A DNA stretch of 64,000 bases from Streptacidiphilus sp. PB12-B1b (GTDB taxonomy: Bacteria > Actinomycetota > Actinomycetes > Streptomycetales > Streptomycetaceae). Under the pieces are notes generated by a model. That model saw only the letters and a list, made by a program, of their open reading frames with translations, was not told the DNA's origin and searched no databases. This document shows positions 37,123-44,422 of the stretch, piece after piece. The translations under genes were made by a program, and so were the position numbers. Numbering within the stretch: the first letter of the stretch is position 1; each line of letters opens with the position of its first letter. The DNA lies in the NCBI RefSeq assembly GCF_014084125.1, contig NZ_CP048405.1, forward strand, positions 2,046,001-2,110,000, read 5' to 3'.

Positions 37123-38715
37123 ATGACGCAGCTCATCCTGCTCTTCTGCGTGCTGCTGGCGGCGATCGTCAGCACCCCGGTGGCCGAGCGGGTCGGGGTG
37201 CCGCAGCCGGTGCTGATGACGCTGATCGGCATCGTGCTGGCGGTCCTGCCCTTCGTGCCCAACGTCACCATCGCGCCGGACCTGATCCTGCCGCTGGTGC
37301 TGCCGCCGCTGATCTACGCCGCCGCGCAGCGCTCCACCACCCGCTACTTCCGTGCCAACTCCCGGGTGATCCTGCTGCTGGCGGTGTTCCTGGTGCTGGT
37401 CACCACCGCCGCGGTGGCGCTGGCCTGCCACTGGATCGTGCCCGCGCTGCCGGTGGGCGCGGCGATCGCGCTGGGGGCGCTGGTCTCCCCGCCGGACCCG
37501 ATCGCGGCGGCGGCCGTGGCCAGCAGCGTCGGGCTGCCGCGCCGGCTGATGGGCATCCTGGAGACCGAGGGCCTGTTCAACGACGTCACCGCGCTGGTGG
37601 TGTACGGGCTGGCGGTGGACGCCGTGGTCAAGGGCAGCTTCTCGACCCTGGAGGCGGTGGAGCGGCTGGTGCTGTCGGCGGTGCTGGCGGTGGTCCTCGG
37701 GGTGGGCCTGGGCTGGCTCAGCGGCAAGGTGATGGGGCTGCTGCACGATCCGACGCTGCAGGTGGCGCTGAGCCTGCTGGTGCCGTTCGCGGCGTACATC
37801 CTGGCCGACGAGCTGCACGGCTCGGGGATGCTGGCGGTGCTGGTCTGCTCGCTGTGGATCAACGACCAGACGGTCGGCGCGGACGACGTCGGCTACCGGC
37901 TGGTCGGCGAGGCGTTCTGGGACGTGGTGGAGCTGCTGATCTCCGGCATGGCCTTCGGGCTGATCGGCCTGGAGCTGGCCAGCGTGCTGTCCACGGTCGG
38001 CCGGCACTGGACCTCGATGATCGGCGACGCGGCCCTGGTGATCGTGGTGGTGGTGGGCGTCCGGCTGCTGTGGCTGCTGCCCGGGGCCTGGGTCACGCAC
38101 AGCTGGGACCGGGCCCGCGGCGTCCGGGAGGAGGCGGCGCCGATCGGCTGGCGGGAGTCGGTGGTGCTGTGGTGGTCCGGGATGCGCGGGGTGGCCTCGG
38201 TGGCGCTGGCGCTGGCGCTGCCGTACACGGTGGACGGCGGCGGGGCCTTCCCGCAGCGCTCCGAGATCGTCTTCGTGGCCTTCTGCGTGGTGCTGTTCAC
38301 CCTGCTGGTGCAGGGGCTGACGCTGCCCGCGGTGGTCCGCAGGCTCGGTCTGAGCCGGGATCAGGACGCCGAGGACGCGGCCGAGCGCCAGCTCTGGTAC
38401 CGGGTCTCCAAGGCCGGGCTGCGCCGGTTGAAGGAGCTGGCCGCGGCCGAGGAGATCCCGGACGACCTGGTGGACCGGCTGAAGCAGCGTCAGACCGACC
38501 GGCTGGCCCGGCACCGGCCGGACATGTACGACGAGGAGCAGCAGCGCGAGCTGCGCGAACGGGTGTCCCGGGTCAAGCAGTTCGCCGAGGTGGAGCAGGC
38601 GATGCTGGCGGCCGGGCGGCAGGAGATGCAGGTGGCCCGGATGGAGCCGGGCGCCGATCCGGAGCTGGTGGACCGGGTGATCCGCAAACTGGACCTGCGC
38701 AGCAATCCGCGGTAG
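37123..38715 (+). CDS. Na+/H+ antiporter (CPA1, NhaP-type)
   Basis: A 530-residue membrane protein with about twelve helices in the first 420 residues. Family motifs are the ion-binding SPPDPIAAAAVASSVG and LETEGLFNDVTALVVYG (Asp-rich pair), plus the late block SGMRGVASVALALALP. A cytoplasmic, charged C-terminal region (about residues 420-530) is probably helical and regulatory. It exchanges external protons for cytoplasmic Na+ (or K+). The ATG at 37123 follows GAGAGGAG. Confidence 0.93.
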   Translation: MTQLILLFCVLLAAIVSTPVAERVGVPQPVLMTLIGIVLAVLPFVPNVTIAPDLILPLVLPPLIYAAAQRSTTRYFRANSRVILLLAVFLVLVTTAAVALACHWIVPALPVGAAIALGALVSPPDPIAAAAVASSVGLPRRLMGILETEGLFNDVTALVVYGLAVDAVVKGSFSTLEAVERLVLSAVLAVVLGVGLGWLSGKVMGLLHDPTLQVALSLLVPFAAYILADELHGSGMLAVLVCSLWINDQTVGADDVGYRLVGEAFWDVVELLISGMAFGLIGLELASVLSTVGRHWTSMIGDAALVIVVVVGVRLLWLLPGAWVTHSWDRARGVREEAAPIGWRESVVLWWSGMRGVASVALALALPYTVDGGGAFPQRSEIVFVAFCVVLFTLLVQGLTLPAVVRRLGLSRDQDAEDAAERQLWYRVSKAGLRRLKELAAAEEIPDDLVDRLKQRQTDRLARHRPDMYDEEQQRELRERVSRVKQFAEVEQAMLAAGRQEMQVARMEPGADPELVDRVIRKLDLRSNPR

Positions 38716-39036: not shown

Positions 39037-42000
39037 ATGACCACGGCCGTGTACCGCTCCGCAGTTGAGCTGGACGCCGCACCCAGCGGGCTCGCCCTGT
39101 TCTCCGGGGGGCCGACGCCCGCGCCGCGCACCCTGCTCGACATCCTCGACGCCACCACCCGCGACCACCCCCACGAGCCCGCGCTGGACGACGGCCGCAC
39201 CGTGCTGACCTACCGGGCGCTGGCCGCTGAGGTCGACACCCTGCGCGCCGCCCTCGCCGCCGCCGGGGTCGGCGTCGGCGACCGGGTCGGCATCCGCGTC
39301 CCCTCCGGGACCACCGACCTGTACGTCGCCATCCTGGCCGTCCTCGCCGCCGGGGCCGGCTACGTCCCGGTCGACGCCGAGGACCCGGACGAGCGGGCCG
39401 CGCTGGTCTTCGGGGAGGCCCGGGTCTGCGCCGTGGTCGGCGCCGACCGCCGGATCACCCCCGCCGCCCCGGCGCACGGCGCCCCCGGCCGGCCCGGCCC
39501 GGACGACGACGCCTGGATCATCTTCACCTCCGGCTCCACCGGCAAGCCCAAGGGCGTCGCCGTCACCCACCGCAGCGCCGCCGCCTTCGTCGACGCCGAG
39601 TCCGCCCTGTTCCAGCAGGAGGAGCCGCTCGGCCCCGGCGACCGGGTGATGGCCGGGCTGTCCGTGGCCTTCGACGCCTCCTGCGAGGAGATGTGGCTGG
39701 CCTGGCGCTACGGCGCCTGCCTGGTCACCGTCCCCGGGCGCAGGTCCGCAGCGGCGCCGACCTCGGCCCGTGGCTGGTCGAGCAGGAGATCACCGTGGTC
39801 TCCACCGTGCCCACCCTGGCCGCCCTGTGGCCCGCCGACGCCCTCGGCGACGTCCGGCTGCTGATCTTCGGCGGCGAGGCCTGCCCGCCCGAGCTGGCCG
39901 AGCGGCTGGCCACCGAGGGCCGCGAGGTGTGGAACACCTACGGCCCCACCGAGGCCACCGTGGTCGCCTGCGCCGCCCCGCTCACCGGTACGGCCCCGGT
40001 CCGCATCGGCCTGCCGCTGAACGGCTGGGAGCTGGCCGTGGTGGACGCCGAGGGCCAGGTCGTGCCCATGGGCGAGAGCGGCCAGTTGGTCATCGGCGGC
40101 GTCGGCCTGGCCCGCTACCTCGACCCGGAGAAGGACGCCGCCACCTACGCCCCGCTGGAGGCCACCGGCTGGGAGCGCGCCTACCGCAGCGGCGACCTGG
40201 TCCTGGCCCAGCCCGAGGGCCTGGTCTTCCTCGGCCGCGCCGACGAGCAGATCAAGCTCGGCGGCCGGCGCATCGAACTCGGCGAGGTCGACGCCGCCCT
40301 GCAGGCCCTGCCCGGCGTCACCGGCGGCGCCGCCGCCGTCCGCACCGCCCGCGGCGGCAACCAGCTGCTCGTCGGCTACCTGGTCACCGCCGAGGGCTTC
40401 GACCGCGCCGCCGCCGTCGAGCGGCTGCGCGCCGAGCTGCCGTCCACCATGGTGCCGCTGCTCACCCAGGTGGACGAGCTGCCGGTGCGCACCTCCGGCA
40501 AGGTCGACCGCAACGCCCTGCCCTGGCCGCTGCCCGCCCTGGACCAGCCCGGCGACGCCGAGCAGCTCTACGGCACCGAGGCCTGGCTGGCCGAGCAGTG
40601 GACGCAGGTCCTGGGCATGCCCGTGGCCGACGCCGGGGCCGACTTCTTCGCCAGCGGCGGCAGCAGCCTCGGCGCCGCCCAGCTGGTCACGCTGATCCGG
40701 CAGCGCTACGCCCAGGCCGCCGTCAGCGACATCTACCAGCACCCGGTCCTGAGCGACCTGGCCGCCAAGCTCGCCGCCTCCGCCGAGGACACCGGCGCCG
40801 TCCGTGAGATCGCGCCCACCCCGCGCCGCGCCGGGCTGGTCCAGCTGCTGCTGACCGTCCCCCTGCTCACCGTCGTCGGCCTGCGTTGGACCGTCGCCCT
40901 GGCCGCGCTGTGCGCCGTCCTCGGCTGGGCCCCGGCCGCCTCCTGGTGGTGGATCGCCGCCGCGGCCGCCGTGCTGTGGACCCCGGTCGGACGCATCGCC
41001 ATCGCCGCCGGCGGCGCCCGGCTGCTGCTGCGCGGCGTCCGGCCCGGCGAGCACCCCCGCGGCGGCGGCGTCCACCTGCGGCTGTGGGCCGCCGAGCGGC
41101 TCGCCGAGCTGAGCGGCGCCACCGACCTCTCCGGCGCCTGGCTGGTCCGCTACGCCCGCGCCCTGGGCGCCAAGATCGGCGACGACGTCGACCTGCACAC
41201 CCTGCCGCCGGTCACCGGCTGGCTGCGGCTCGGCAAGGGCTGCGCGGTGGAGGCCGACGTCGACCTGGCCGGCTGGTGGCTGGACGGCGACGTCCTGCAC
41301 CTCGGCCCGGTCCGGGTCGGCGCCGGCGCCACCGTCGGCACCCGCAGCATCCTCTTCCCGGGCGCCCGGGTCGGCAAGCGCGCCGAGATCGTCGCCGGCT
41401 CCGCCGTCACCGGGCAGGTCCCCACCGGCCAGCGCTGGGCCGGGGCGCCCGCCGCCAAGACCGGCCGGGCCGCCCACAACTGGCCCGGGCAGCGCCCGCC
41501 CCGCAAGACCCGCTGGGCGATGATGTACGGCGCCAGCGGCCTCGGCCTGACCCTCCTGCCGCTGGCGGCAGCCGCCGCCGGGATCGCCGTGCTGGCCGCG
41601 CTGTGGTCCGCCTCGGTCTGGCAGGTCGCCCTGGTCGCCGTGCCGGTCGCCACCGTCACCGGCGCGCTCGCCTACGCCGGGCTGGTCCTGGCCGCCGTTC
41701 GGCTGCTCGGCATCGGGCTGCGCACCGGCCACCACGCCCTGCACAGCCGCAACGCCTGGCAGGCGTGGACCGTGATCCAGCTGATGGACCTCGCCCGGGG
41801 CAGCCTCTTCCCGCTGTACGCCAGCACCCTCACCCCGTTCTGGCTGCGCGCGCTGGGCATGAAGGTCGGCCGCGGCGTCGAGGCGTCCACCGTGCTCGCC
41901 CTGCCCAGCATGACCACCGTCGGCGACGGCGCCTTCCTCGCCGACGACACCCTGATCGCCCCCTACGAGCTGGGCGGCGGCTGGCTGCGCATCGACGCCG

Positions 42001-42881
42001 CCGAGATCGGCGAACGCGCCTTCCTCGGCAACTCCGGGATGACCGCGCCCGGACGCAGCGTGCCCGACCGGGGCCTGGTGGGCGTGCTGTCCGCCACCCC
42101 CAAGAAGGCCAAGAAGGGCAGCTCCTACCTGGGCATGCCGCCGATGAAGCTGCCGCGCCGCGCCGACAAGGCCGACCAGGGCCTCACCTACGCCCCCTCC
42201 GCCCGGCTGCGCTGGAGCCGCGCCGCCGTCGAGGTGCTGCGGATCGTCCCGGTGATGCTCTCGGTCGGGCTGGCGCTGGGCGTGCTGGTCACGCTCCGGG
42301 CCCTCGCCGGGGCCGAGGGCTACGCTGTCGCCGCCCTGGCCTCCGGCGCGGTGCTGCTGGCCGCCGGGCTGCTCGCCTGCCTGGTCTCGCTGGCCGCCAA
42401 GTGGCTGCTGGTCGGCCGTTTCACCGCCGTCGAGCACCCGCTCTGGAGCGGGCACGTCTGGCGCAACGAGCTGGCCGACACCTTCACCGAGGTGCTGGCC
42501 GCGCCCTGGCTGCTGGGCGCGGTGCCCGGCAGCCCGCTGATGAACCTGTGGCTGCGCGGCCTCGGCGCGCACATCGGCACCGGCGTCTGGTGCGAGAGCT
42601 ACTGGCTGCCCGAGGCCGACCTGGTCACCCTCGGCGACGGCGTCAGCGTCAACCGCGGCTGCGTGGTGCAGACCCACCTGTTCCACGACCGGATCATGCG
42701 GATGGACTCGGTCACCCTCCAGGAGGGTGCGACCCTGGGCCCGCACGGTATCGTCCTGCCCGGGACCACCATCGGGGCCCGCACCACCCTCGGCCCGGCG
42801 TCGCTGGTGATGCGCGGCGAGTCCGTGCCCGCGGACAGCCGCTGGCTGGGCAACCCCATCGCGGCCTGGCCACGCACCTGA
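39037..42881 (+). pseudogene. Pls/PosA-type membrane NRPS (A-T-TM/LbH), apparent frameshift
   Basis: Two frames overlap: 39037-39864 (start of the adenylation domain) and 39693-42881 (the rest). Restoring one C in the CCCC run at 39732-39735 joins them into about 1281 residues. Order: adenylation domain with FTSGSTGKPKG, FDASCEEMW, NTYGPTEATV and TSGKVDR; carrier domain FFASGGSSLG (pantetheine Ser about residue 544); then three pairs of membrane helices each followed by a left-handed beta-helix hexapeptide-repeat domain. This is the layout of epsilon-poly-L-lysine synthetase, which makes isopeptide homopolymers. Specificity residues read D-A-E-S-I-G-T-V-V-K, near a lysine code. It may be a real mutation or a sequencing error. 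Confidence 0.82.
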
Positions 42882-42934: not shown

Positions 42935-44422
42935 TTGAGCAGTCCCAAGCAGTCGCCGCGCCTGCCCGCCGACCCCTACTTCCCCGGCCACGGCGACCCC
43001 CGCTACCACGTCCACCGCTACGAACTGGCCCTGGACTACCGCCCCGGGCCCAACCGGCTCTCCGGCAGCGCCCGGCTGACCTGCCTCGCCGGGAGCGAGG
43101 CGCTCACCGAACTCGCGCTGGACTTCGCCGAGTTCCGGATCAACCGGGTGCTGCTCGACGGGCGGCCCGCGCGCTGGACGCTGCGCGCGGGCAAGCTGCG
43201 GCTGCGCCCGGCCCGGGCGCTGCGCGCCGGAGCGGCGTTCACCGTGGAGGTCAGCTACAGCGGCAACCCGCGCCCGGTCCGCAGCGAGTGGGGCGGGCTC
43301 GGCTGGGAGGAGCTGGAGGACGGCTCGCTGGTCGCCAGCCAGCCCATCGGCGCGCCCTCCTGGTACCCGTGCAACGACCGCCCGGCCGACAAGGCCGCCT
43401 ACCAGGTCTCGATCACCGCGCCCAGCCCGTACACCGTCGTCGCCAACGGCCGGCTGCTCACCCGCACCGCCCGGGCCGGCGCCACCACCTGGGTGTACGA
43501 GCAGCCCGCGCCCTCGGCCAGCTACCTGGCGACGGTGCAGATCGGCCGGTACGAGCAGCTGGCCCTGGCCGGCGGCCCGGTGCCGCAGACCGTCTACGCC
43601 CCGGCCCGGCTGGTCGCCGCCTGCGGGATCGACCTGGCCCGCCAGCCGCAGATGATGGGGCTGTTCACCGAGCTGTTCGGGCCCTACCCGTTCGGCGAGT
43701 ACGCGGTGGTGGTCACCGACGAGGAGCTGGACGTCCCGGTCGAGGCCCAGGGGCTGTCCACCTTCGGCTCCAACCACGTGGACGGCGCCCGGGGCTCGGA
43801 GCGGCTGGTCGCGCACGAGCTGGCGCACCAGTGGTTCGGCAACAGCGTCACGGTCGCCGACTGGCGGCACATCTGGCTGAACGAGGGCTTCGCCAAGTAC
43901 GCCGAGTGGCTGTGGTCCGAGCGCTCCGGCGGCCGCAGCGCCGCCCAGCACGCCGCCGAGTCCCACGCCCGGCTCTCCGGCCTGCCGCAGGACCTGGTGC
44001 TGGCCGATCCCGGCCGCAAGCTGATGTTCGACGACCGGCTGTACCGGCGCGGCGGGCTGACCGTGCACGCGCTGCGGGTGGTCCTCGGCGACCCGGCCTT
44101 CTTCGCGCTGCTGAAGGAGTGGGCCACCGAGCACCGGGGCGGCGTGGTGACCACCGCCGACTTCACCGCCCGCGCCCAGAGCCACACCGCCGAGCCGCTG
44201 CACGCCTTCTTCAACGCCTGGCTGTACGCGCCGGAGCTGCCCCCGCTGCCACGGTCCGCGCCGCCCGCCCCGCAGCCCCCGGCCGGGCCCGGGTCGCAGC
44301 CGCAGTCCGGCCCGGTGCCTGCGGTCGAGCCGGTCGGCCCGGAGGCGGCCGCCGCCCTACCGTCCGAGCGGCGGCGCTGGGCGCGCTGGACGCCCGACCC
44401 CCGCCGGGGCCGGACGACCTGA
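42935..44422 (+). CDS. M1-family zinc aminopeptidase
   Basis: A 495-residue protein with an N-terminal beta-sandwich domain and a thermolysin-like catalytic domain. The zinc motif is HELAHQWFGNSV with the third ligand Glu in WLNEGFAKYAEWL. The usual GxMEN exopeptidase motif appears as EAQGLSTFGSN, as in a subgroup of actinobacterial M1 proteins. The C-terminal 60 residues are Pro/Gln-rich, and the usual ERAP1-like helical domain is absent, so it is shorter than PepN. Start assigned to TTG 42935 (GGAG 11 nt upstream), weakly supported. It lies 53 bp after the Pls-like gene and may be co-transcribed. Confidence 0.85.
   Translation: MSSPKQSPRLPADPYFPGHGDPRYHVHRYELALDYRPGPNRLSGSARLTCLAGSEALTELALDFAEFRINRVLLDGRPARWTLRAGKLRLRPARALRAGAAFTVEVSYSGNPRPVRSEWGGLGWEELEDGSLVASQPIGAPSWYPCNDRPADKAAYQVSITAPSPYTVVANGRLLTRTARAGATTWVYEQPAPSASYLATVQIGRYEQLALAGGPVPQTVYAPARLVAACGIDLARQPQMMGLFTELFGPYPFGEYAVVVTDEELDVPVEAQGLSTFGSNHVDGARGSERLVAHELAHQWFGNSVTVADWRHIWLNEGFAKYAEWLWSERSGGRSAAQHAAESHARLSGLPQDLVLADPGRKLMFDDRLYRRGGLTVHALRVVLGDPAFFALLKEWATEHRGGVVTTADFTARAQSHTAEPLHAFFNAWLYAPELPPLPRSAPPAPQPPAGPGSQPQSGPVPAVEPVGPEAAAALPSERRRWARWTPDPRRGRTT

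Follow-up and report, generated by a model that had tools for sequence, protein, structure and literature searches.

A frame-split gene for a Pls-type peptide synthetase and its M1 peptidase neighbour in Streptacidiphilus sp. PB12-B1b: a probable epsilon-poly-L-lysine locus

Does the membrane peptide synthetase gene found in a 64,000-nucleotide stretch of the Streptacidiphilus sp. PB12-B1b genome (referred to as the window) encode a polymer-forming enzyme, which amino acid would such an enzyme use, and can the gene function as sequenced? The initial annotation, made from the sequence alone, proposed a synthetase with an adenylation (A) domain, a carrier domain and three pairs of membrane helices alternating with three left-handed beta-helices, with which the organism might make a cationic poly-amino acid or an aminoacyl modification of its envelope. 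The list of open reading frames (ORFs) contains two overlapping ORFs for this synthetase, both on the plus strand and in differing frames. The first (39037..39864, frame 1), recognized by an AMP-binding match, encodes the N-terminal half of the adenylation core, ends just beyond the FDASCEEMW motif and aligns to residues 16-236 of 7WEW, the A domain of the S. albulus epsilon-poly-L-lysine synthase (Pls). The second (39693..42881, frame 3) encodes the remaining part of the A domain, the carrier and the terminal domain. 7WEW is the nearest solved relative of both pieces (E-values of 1.5e-87 and 1e-104, respectively), and among the best 60 of the 114 solved sequences matching the second piece none aligns best within the terminal domain.

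The domain order is that of the Pls/PosA family (TIGR02353). The A domain is followed by a carrier (thiolation) domain (40584..40766, plus strand; PF00550) with a GGSSL motif, whose pantetheine serine (about position 40665) is present in 98% of 56 aligned rows, and then by the terminal polymerisation domain (40839..42860, plus strand), which matches the TIGR02353 profile with 760.3 bits, i.e., above the curated cut-off of 423.1. Six paired membrane helices and three soluble segments were predicted in this part of the protein, all encoded on the plus strand: helix pair 1 (40824..41027, terminal-domain residues 9-76), beta-helix 1 (41154..41477), helix pair 2 (41508..41711, residues 237-304), beta-helix 2 (41862..42152), helix pair 3 (42201..42410, residues 468-537) and beta-helix 3 (42567..42866), where the limits of the beta-helices are approximate and those of the second and third follow the secondary structure of the model. 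In the structure model of the terminal domain (pLDDT 90.4), three helix pairs alternate with coils of short strands, and the first coil matches left-handed beta-helix acyltransferases. The TIGR02353 and Pfam matches, the predicted helices and the model together bear out the architecture originally read by eye. Beta-helix 3 carries a QTHLFHD motif (42669..42689, plus strand), whose His (42675-42677; terminal-domain residue 626) and Asp (42687-42689; residue 630) are invariant in 56/56 rows, including three synthetases with other pocket codes and one relative devoid of the A domain. This conservation makes the two residues a candidate catalytic pair and a likely condensation site; in the open-licence literature nothing was found on catalytic residues.

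As regards the substrate, the alignment with 7WEW located the pocket residues D (39673), A (39676) and E (39685) in frame 1 (39673..39687) and S (39801), I (39864), G (39870), T (39936), V (39960) and V (39963) in frame 3 (39801..39965), all on the plus strand. The ten specificity positions read DAESIGTVVK in the window and, identically, in 7WEW. The letters of the code read by eye were therefore right and its lysine-like character stands, yet the nearest reference is Pls itself and not the bacitracin synthetase code named in the initial annotation; nor did the structure-based comparison give a non-basic pocket, which would have spoken against the original proposal. The same code was found in all 108 rows read (106 loci, the window and 7WEW), five loci (L001, L027, L097, L109 and L110) having been removed beforehand and two of the loci (L002 and L113) being one gene. 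Stachelhaus codes are degenerate, and PosA takes ornithine with the pocket DMEHNGTVSK (PMC10522769), which could be read in favour of another diamino acid (ornithine, diaminobutyrate or beta-lysine) as the substrate. We regard this as highly improbable. According to the same source, Asp and Glu at pocket positions 1 and 3 are well conserved, whereas position 2 is Ala in lysine enzymes, as in the window, Met in PosA and Phe in the PDAP/PDAB synthetases (PMC10522769). Moreover, the relatives compared from outside the lysine-code clade have different pockets (DFEYLGTVTK, DFECLSAVTK and DLEDIGTVVK), and the one with DFECLSAVTK adjoins genes for diaminobutyrate transaminase and aspartate kinase, while no dat/ask or aminomutase gene was apparent among the neighbours of the synthetase in the window, most of which were named by eye.

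The two ORFs result from a frame slip, i.e., one base fewer than in the relatives, placed by the aligner in a short C/G run (39732..39739, plus strand) that has pocket residues of the lysine code on either side. The synthetase is consequently read in two frames and not in the one continuous frame expected of a Pls/PosA gene, although its homology is not in doubt: frame 1 yields a 275-residue fragment, and the protein database entry for the second frame (P0001; 1028 residues) lacks the N-terminal half of the A core. Because the ORF is split in this way, this copy of the synthetase is inactive as sequenced. The slip was missing from all eight distinct relatives compared (nine loci aligned). Of 111 loci (L002 and L113 being one gene), 109 were judgeable, and 107 of these have the halves of the A domain in the same frame; on this ground programmed frameshifting was rejected. 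The halves lie in different frames in the window (L001) and in L027, a draft locus of S. violaceus.

Is the slip real? Among 59 adenylation-type matches in the single-contig genome, the domain of the window is the only one that consists of two adjacent halves in different frames, and several other matches are partial, yet in a single frame. The assembly thus seems not to be generally error-prone, and poor assembly overall was judged an unlikely cause. Nor are there signs of decay in the gene: third-position GC stays at 0.96-0.98, and the dN/dS values between the window and three congeners (0.32-0.45) are not higher than the congeners' own (0.41-0.47). Taken together, the lack of signs of decay and the single split domain point either to an isolated error in the sequence or to a mutation of recent origin. 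We give roughly even chances to a sequencing or assembly error, with a gene that is intact in the living strain, a reading compatible with the production of epsilon-poly-L-lysine; the position in a short C/G run, the maintained GC and dN/dS values and the absence of the slip from the relatives speak for it, but a young real mutation would look identical and no other adenylation-type match is split between frames in this way. With the gene broken as sequenced, any polymer would require either an error in the sequence or the activity of an intact paralogue. Such a paralogue exists: a second, intact Pls/PosA synthetase gene with the same pocket (L113:9264-13289; about 6773264-6777289 of G000:C1, matched at 6773294-6775387), adjoining a gene for a PdtaS-type histidine kinase, which could still act if the slip in the window is real. 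In the group of this paralogue no M1 peptidase neighbour was found (0/14 loci), nor did one appear when longer flanks were taken for seven loci, six of which repeat genes of the first set.

Directly downstream of the synthetase in the window lies a gene for an M1 metallopeptidase (about 42935..44422, plus strand; probable TTG start at 42935), which in a Pfam search begun at 42938 matched PF01433 (95 bits) and PF17900. An M1 gene directly follows the synthetase in 80/80 relative loci from named genomes and is also present in 12 congener loci (L085-L096) and in 7/7 further loci (L166-L172), whose species may overlap those 80. The HExxH-18-E zinc site was found in 106/107 partner proteins (some genes being counted twice). 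The synthetase and its M1 partner diverge together (r = 0.96 for 35 loci and 0.90 for 26 loci of the window's clade), a value that vertical descent alone would raise too. In nine loci with an A domain 76-93% like 7WEW, as well as in a record annotated pls, the M1 start codon lies 4 nt inside the synthetase end, and S. albulus pls is described as overlapping by 4 nt with pldII (PMC4361855), the gene of an aminopeptidase reported to lie on the external face of the membrane (PMC9223678; PMC9205021). Since the S. albulus-like loci show this pls-pldII overlap, and the M1 protein of the window is 43-48% identical to the M1 proteins of these nine loci and of the pls-annotated record, it appears to be a PldII homologue. 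By adjacency, the arrangement matches the published pls-pldII operon. In contrast to S. albulus, the M1 start codon in the window does not overlap the synthetase end. The pairing is not obligatory, because the paralogue group and a plasmid-borne member of the window's clade in R. opacus are devoid of the M1 gene.

A conserved cluster beyond this pair was also considered and rejected for the wider clade, since the eight other flanking genes of the window were found in 0/80 of the same relative loci, with flanks of at most 6 kb, shorter in a few. These genes were named by eye (IleRS, DksA, LspA, RluD, an antiporter, a DsbA-like, a vitamin-K-reductase-like protein and DnaE), the antiporter alone being run against family libraries. 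All eight are present in the near congeners L152 and L153, six in L155 and none in L154.

The position of the synthetase among its relatives was established in a tree whose root was set by three synthetases with other pocket codes. In this tree, the clade with the lysine code (52 rows; support 100/100) comprised the window's clade (36 rows; 99/99), with members from Streptomycetaceae, Pseudonocardiaceae, Micromonosporaceae, Streptosporangiaceae, Nocardiaceae and Arthrobacter, and a sister clade of S. albulus-type Pls and the paralogues (16 rows; 98/87). The Pls side of this tree was represented by close relatives of S. albulus Pls and the record annotated pls, whereas 7WEW entered the A-domain tree only, as a long branch beside the paralogues. 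The window gene thus belongs to a clade that extends across Actinomycetota and is sister to the one with S. albulus-type Pls, both lying within a single clade with the lysine code. A position far from all polymer-forming synthetases, which would have contradicted the original proposal, was not obtained. Rooting with the A-less relatives alone nested the Pls clade inside the window's clade; as the branch of that outgroup is very long, the closer outgroups were preferred. The root remains uncertain, and the order changes with other roots.

A TIGR02353 gene scoring above the cut-off was found in 14/14 Streptacidiphilus genomes searched and in 8/149 genomes across the phylum (the window's own genome being included in both counts), and a match to the Pls A domain at E <= 1e-120 in 211/394 genomes of the family, both clades taken together. 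In one congener (L154, genome G010), the synthetase-M1 pair groups with Streptomyces/Kitasatospora copies and occupies another chromosomal place, which suggests replacement by transfer. Two TIGR02353 matches, one from the same family and one from the same class (L165 and L175), lie in frames of about 860 residues without an A domain and would need one from elsewhere. The ORF from Arthrobacter (L178) is a 502-residue piece only, in which the pocket is not readable. The matches listed also included plasmids from Mycobacterium avium and M. intracellulare, with a Pls/PosA gene that shares about 59% identity with that of the window across 55% of the terminal domain.

The locus is of a known kind, an epsilon-poly-lysine synthetase gene beside its usual partner peptidase gene. 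We consider it probable that its Pls-type synthetase and PldII-type M1 peptidase together constitute a two-gene epsilon-poly-L-lysine unit, and the family most likely makes this polymer. By analogy with the characterised relatives, the A domain would activate L-lysine and load it onto the carrier-domain pantetheine; the terminal domain, presumably a fused trio of acyltransferase-like beta-helices anchored by a bundle of six membrane helices, would pass the lysyl group from its thioester to the side-chain amine of an acceptor, either lysine or the chain under extension, in repeated rounds, giving an isopeptide-linked polymer. The M1 enzyme would trim this polymer and so shorten the product. Should the slip prove real, the copy in the window would have no activity. 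Of the two products originally proposed, the cationic poly-amino acid is favoured by the Pls-identical pocket, the phylogeny and the conserved M1 partner, whereas the envelope modification gained no support of its own. In the open-licence literature no paper joining Streptacidiphilus with poly-lysine was found.

The enzyme might also activate lysine and yield only short oligomers or a single lysyl transfer, e.g., to an envelope component, and no long polymer. Relatives are indeed widespread in the family, as given above, while a comparatively small share of strains is described as producing the polymer (PMC8506220), and the M1 partner in the window's clade shows no export signal (see below). 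We nevertheless think this unlikely, because the terminal domain is not shortened and has retained the residues that do not vary among the rows compared, and because a coryneform relative from a peptidase operon makes a long product when expressed elsewhere: the Pls of Corynebacterium variabile, 51% like Pls, gave epsilon-poly-lysine of 26-35 residues in S. coelicolor, although no polymer was reported as detectable in C. variabile itself (PMC8117764). The pockets of the coryneform proteins are reported to be identical or highly similar to that of confirmed Pls (PMC8117764), and, judging from the Arthrobacter and Rhodococcus members, the C. variabile enzyme probably belongs to the window's clade.

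Returning to the two-gene epsilon-poly-L-lysine unit, the closest known system is S. albulus Pls/PldII, with the same domain order, ten pocket residues and terminal-domain family and a peptidase gene directly downstream. The A domain of the window is 66% identical to 7WEW and its terminal domain 52-55% identical to the S. albulus-like proteins; unlike S. albulus Pls, the window copy falls in the sister clade and is frameshifted. Acinetobacter baumannii PosA, the delta-poly-L-ornithine synthetase, shares the family, the architecture and the pocket residues Asp (position 1) and Glu (position 3), but differs in its pocket code as a whole (DMEHNGTVSK), the ornithine substrate and its single-gene operon (PMC10522769); among the matches listed, A. 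baumannii records, presumably PosA, showed about 34% identity across the matched 55% of the terminal domain.

A further difference from S. albulus concerns the export of the peptidase. In all ten S. albulus-like loci the N-terminus of the M1 protein carries a twin-arginine-like (Tat-like) stretch and a hydrophobic segment, whereas no export signal was seen in the N-terminal region of the window's M1 protein, and 0/102 M1 proteins of the window's clade (nine duplicate loci, the window's own among them, having been dropped first) passed a simple hydrophobicity test. Two of the 102 match the arginine pattern, apparently by chance and upstream of any likely start. The threshold of 1.5 was chosen after an earlier, looser test had been seen, in which the arginine pattern was matched by 3/98 proteins and the hydrophobic segment by 1/98 (L082, which fails the later threshold); the test is home-made, the start codons were guessed, and other export routes could be missed by it. 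If real, the absence of the signal throughout the clade would make the partner of the window's clade cytoplasmic. More tentatively, and with the odds rather against it, the window's clade may be a separate, Actinomycetota-wide lysine-polymer system, in which a cytoplasmic peptidase would turn the polymer over inside the cell (as a lysine or charge reserve, or for control of chain length), the exported antibiotic system of S. albulus being an offshoot in which a Tat signal was acquired by the peptidase, and the single conserved His-Asp pair of beta-helix 3 serving as the condensation centre family-wide.

The initial annotation was a sound observation of a known kind of enzyme, which has a closer pocket match than was thought there, a known partner gene and a broken frame. 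Epsilon-poly-lysine is an antimicrobial polymer and a commercial preservative, and the comparison gives two testable leads that deserve specialist attention, i.e., the clade-wide difference in the export signal of the degrading enzyme and the fully conserved His-Asp pair, at which condensation probably takes place. Streptacidiphilus is an acid-loving genus, in which every genome searched contains a member of the family. As S. albulus is reported to accumulate epsilon-poly-lysine at acidic pH (PMC9205021), the genus is a sensible place to look for this polymer.

Finally, a CPA1 Na+/H+ antiporter gene (37123-38715) lies a short distance 5' of the synthetase in the window, and a second antiporter gene (L113:2269-4473) is situated about 5 kb from the paralogue and also near the paralogue in the congeners L156 and L157; the proximity of antiporter genes to both synthetases is possibly due to chance.
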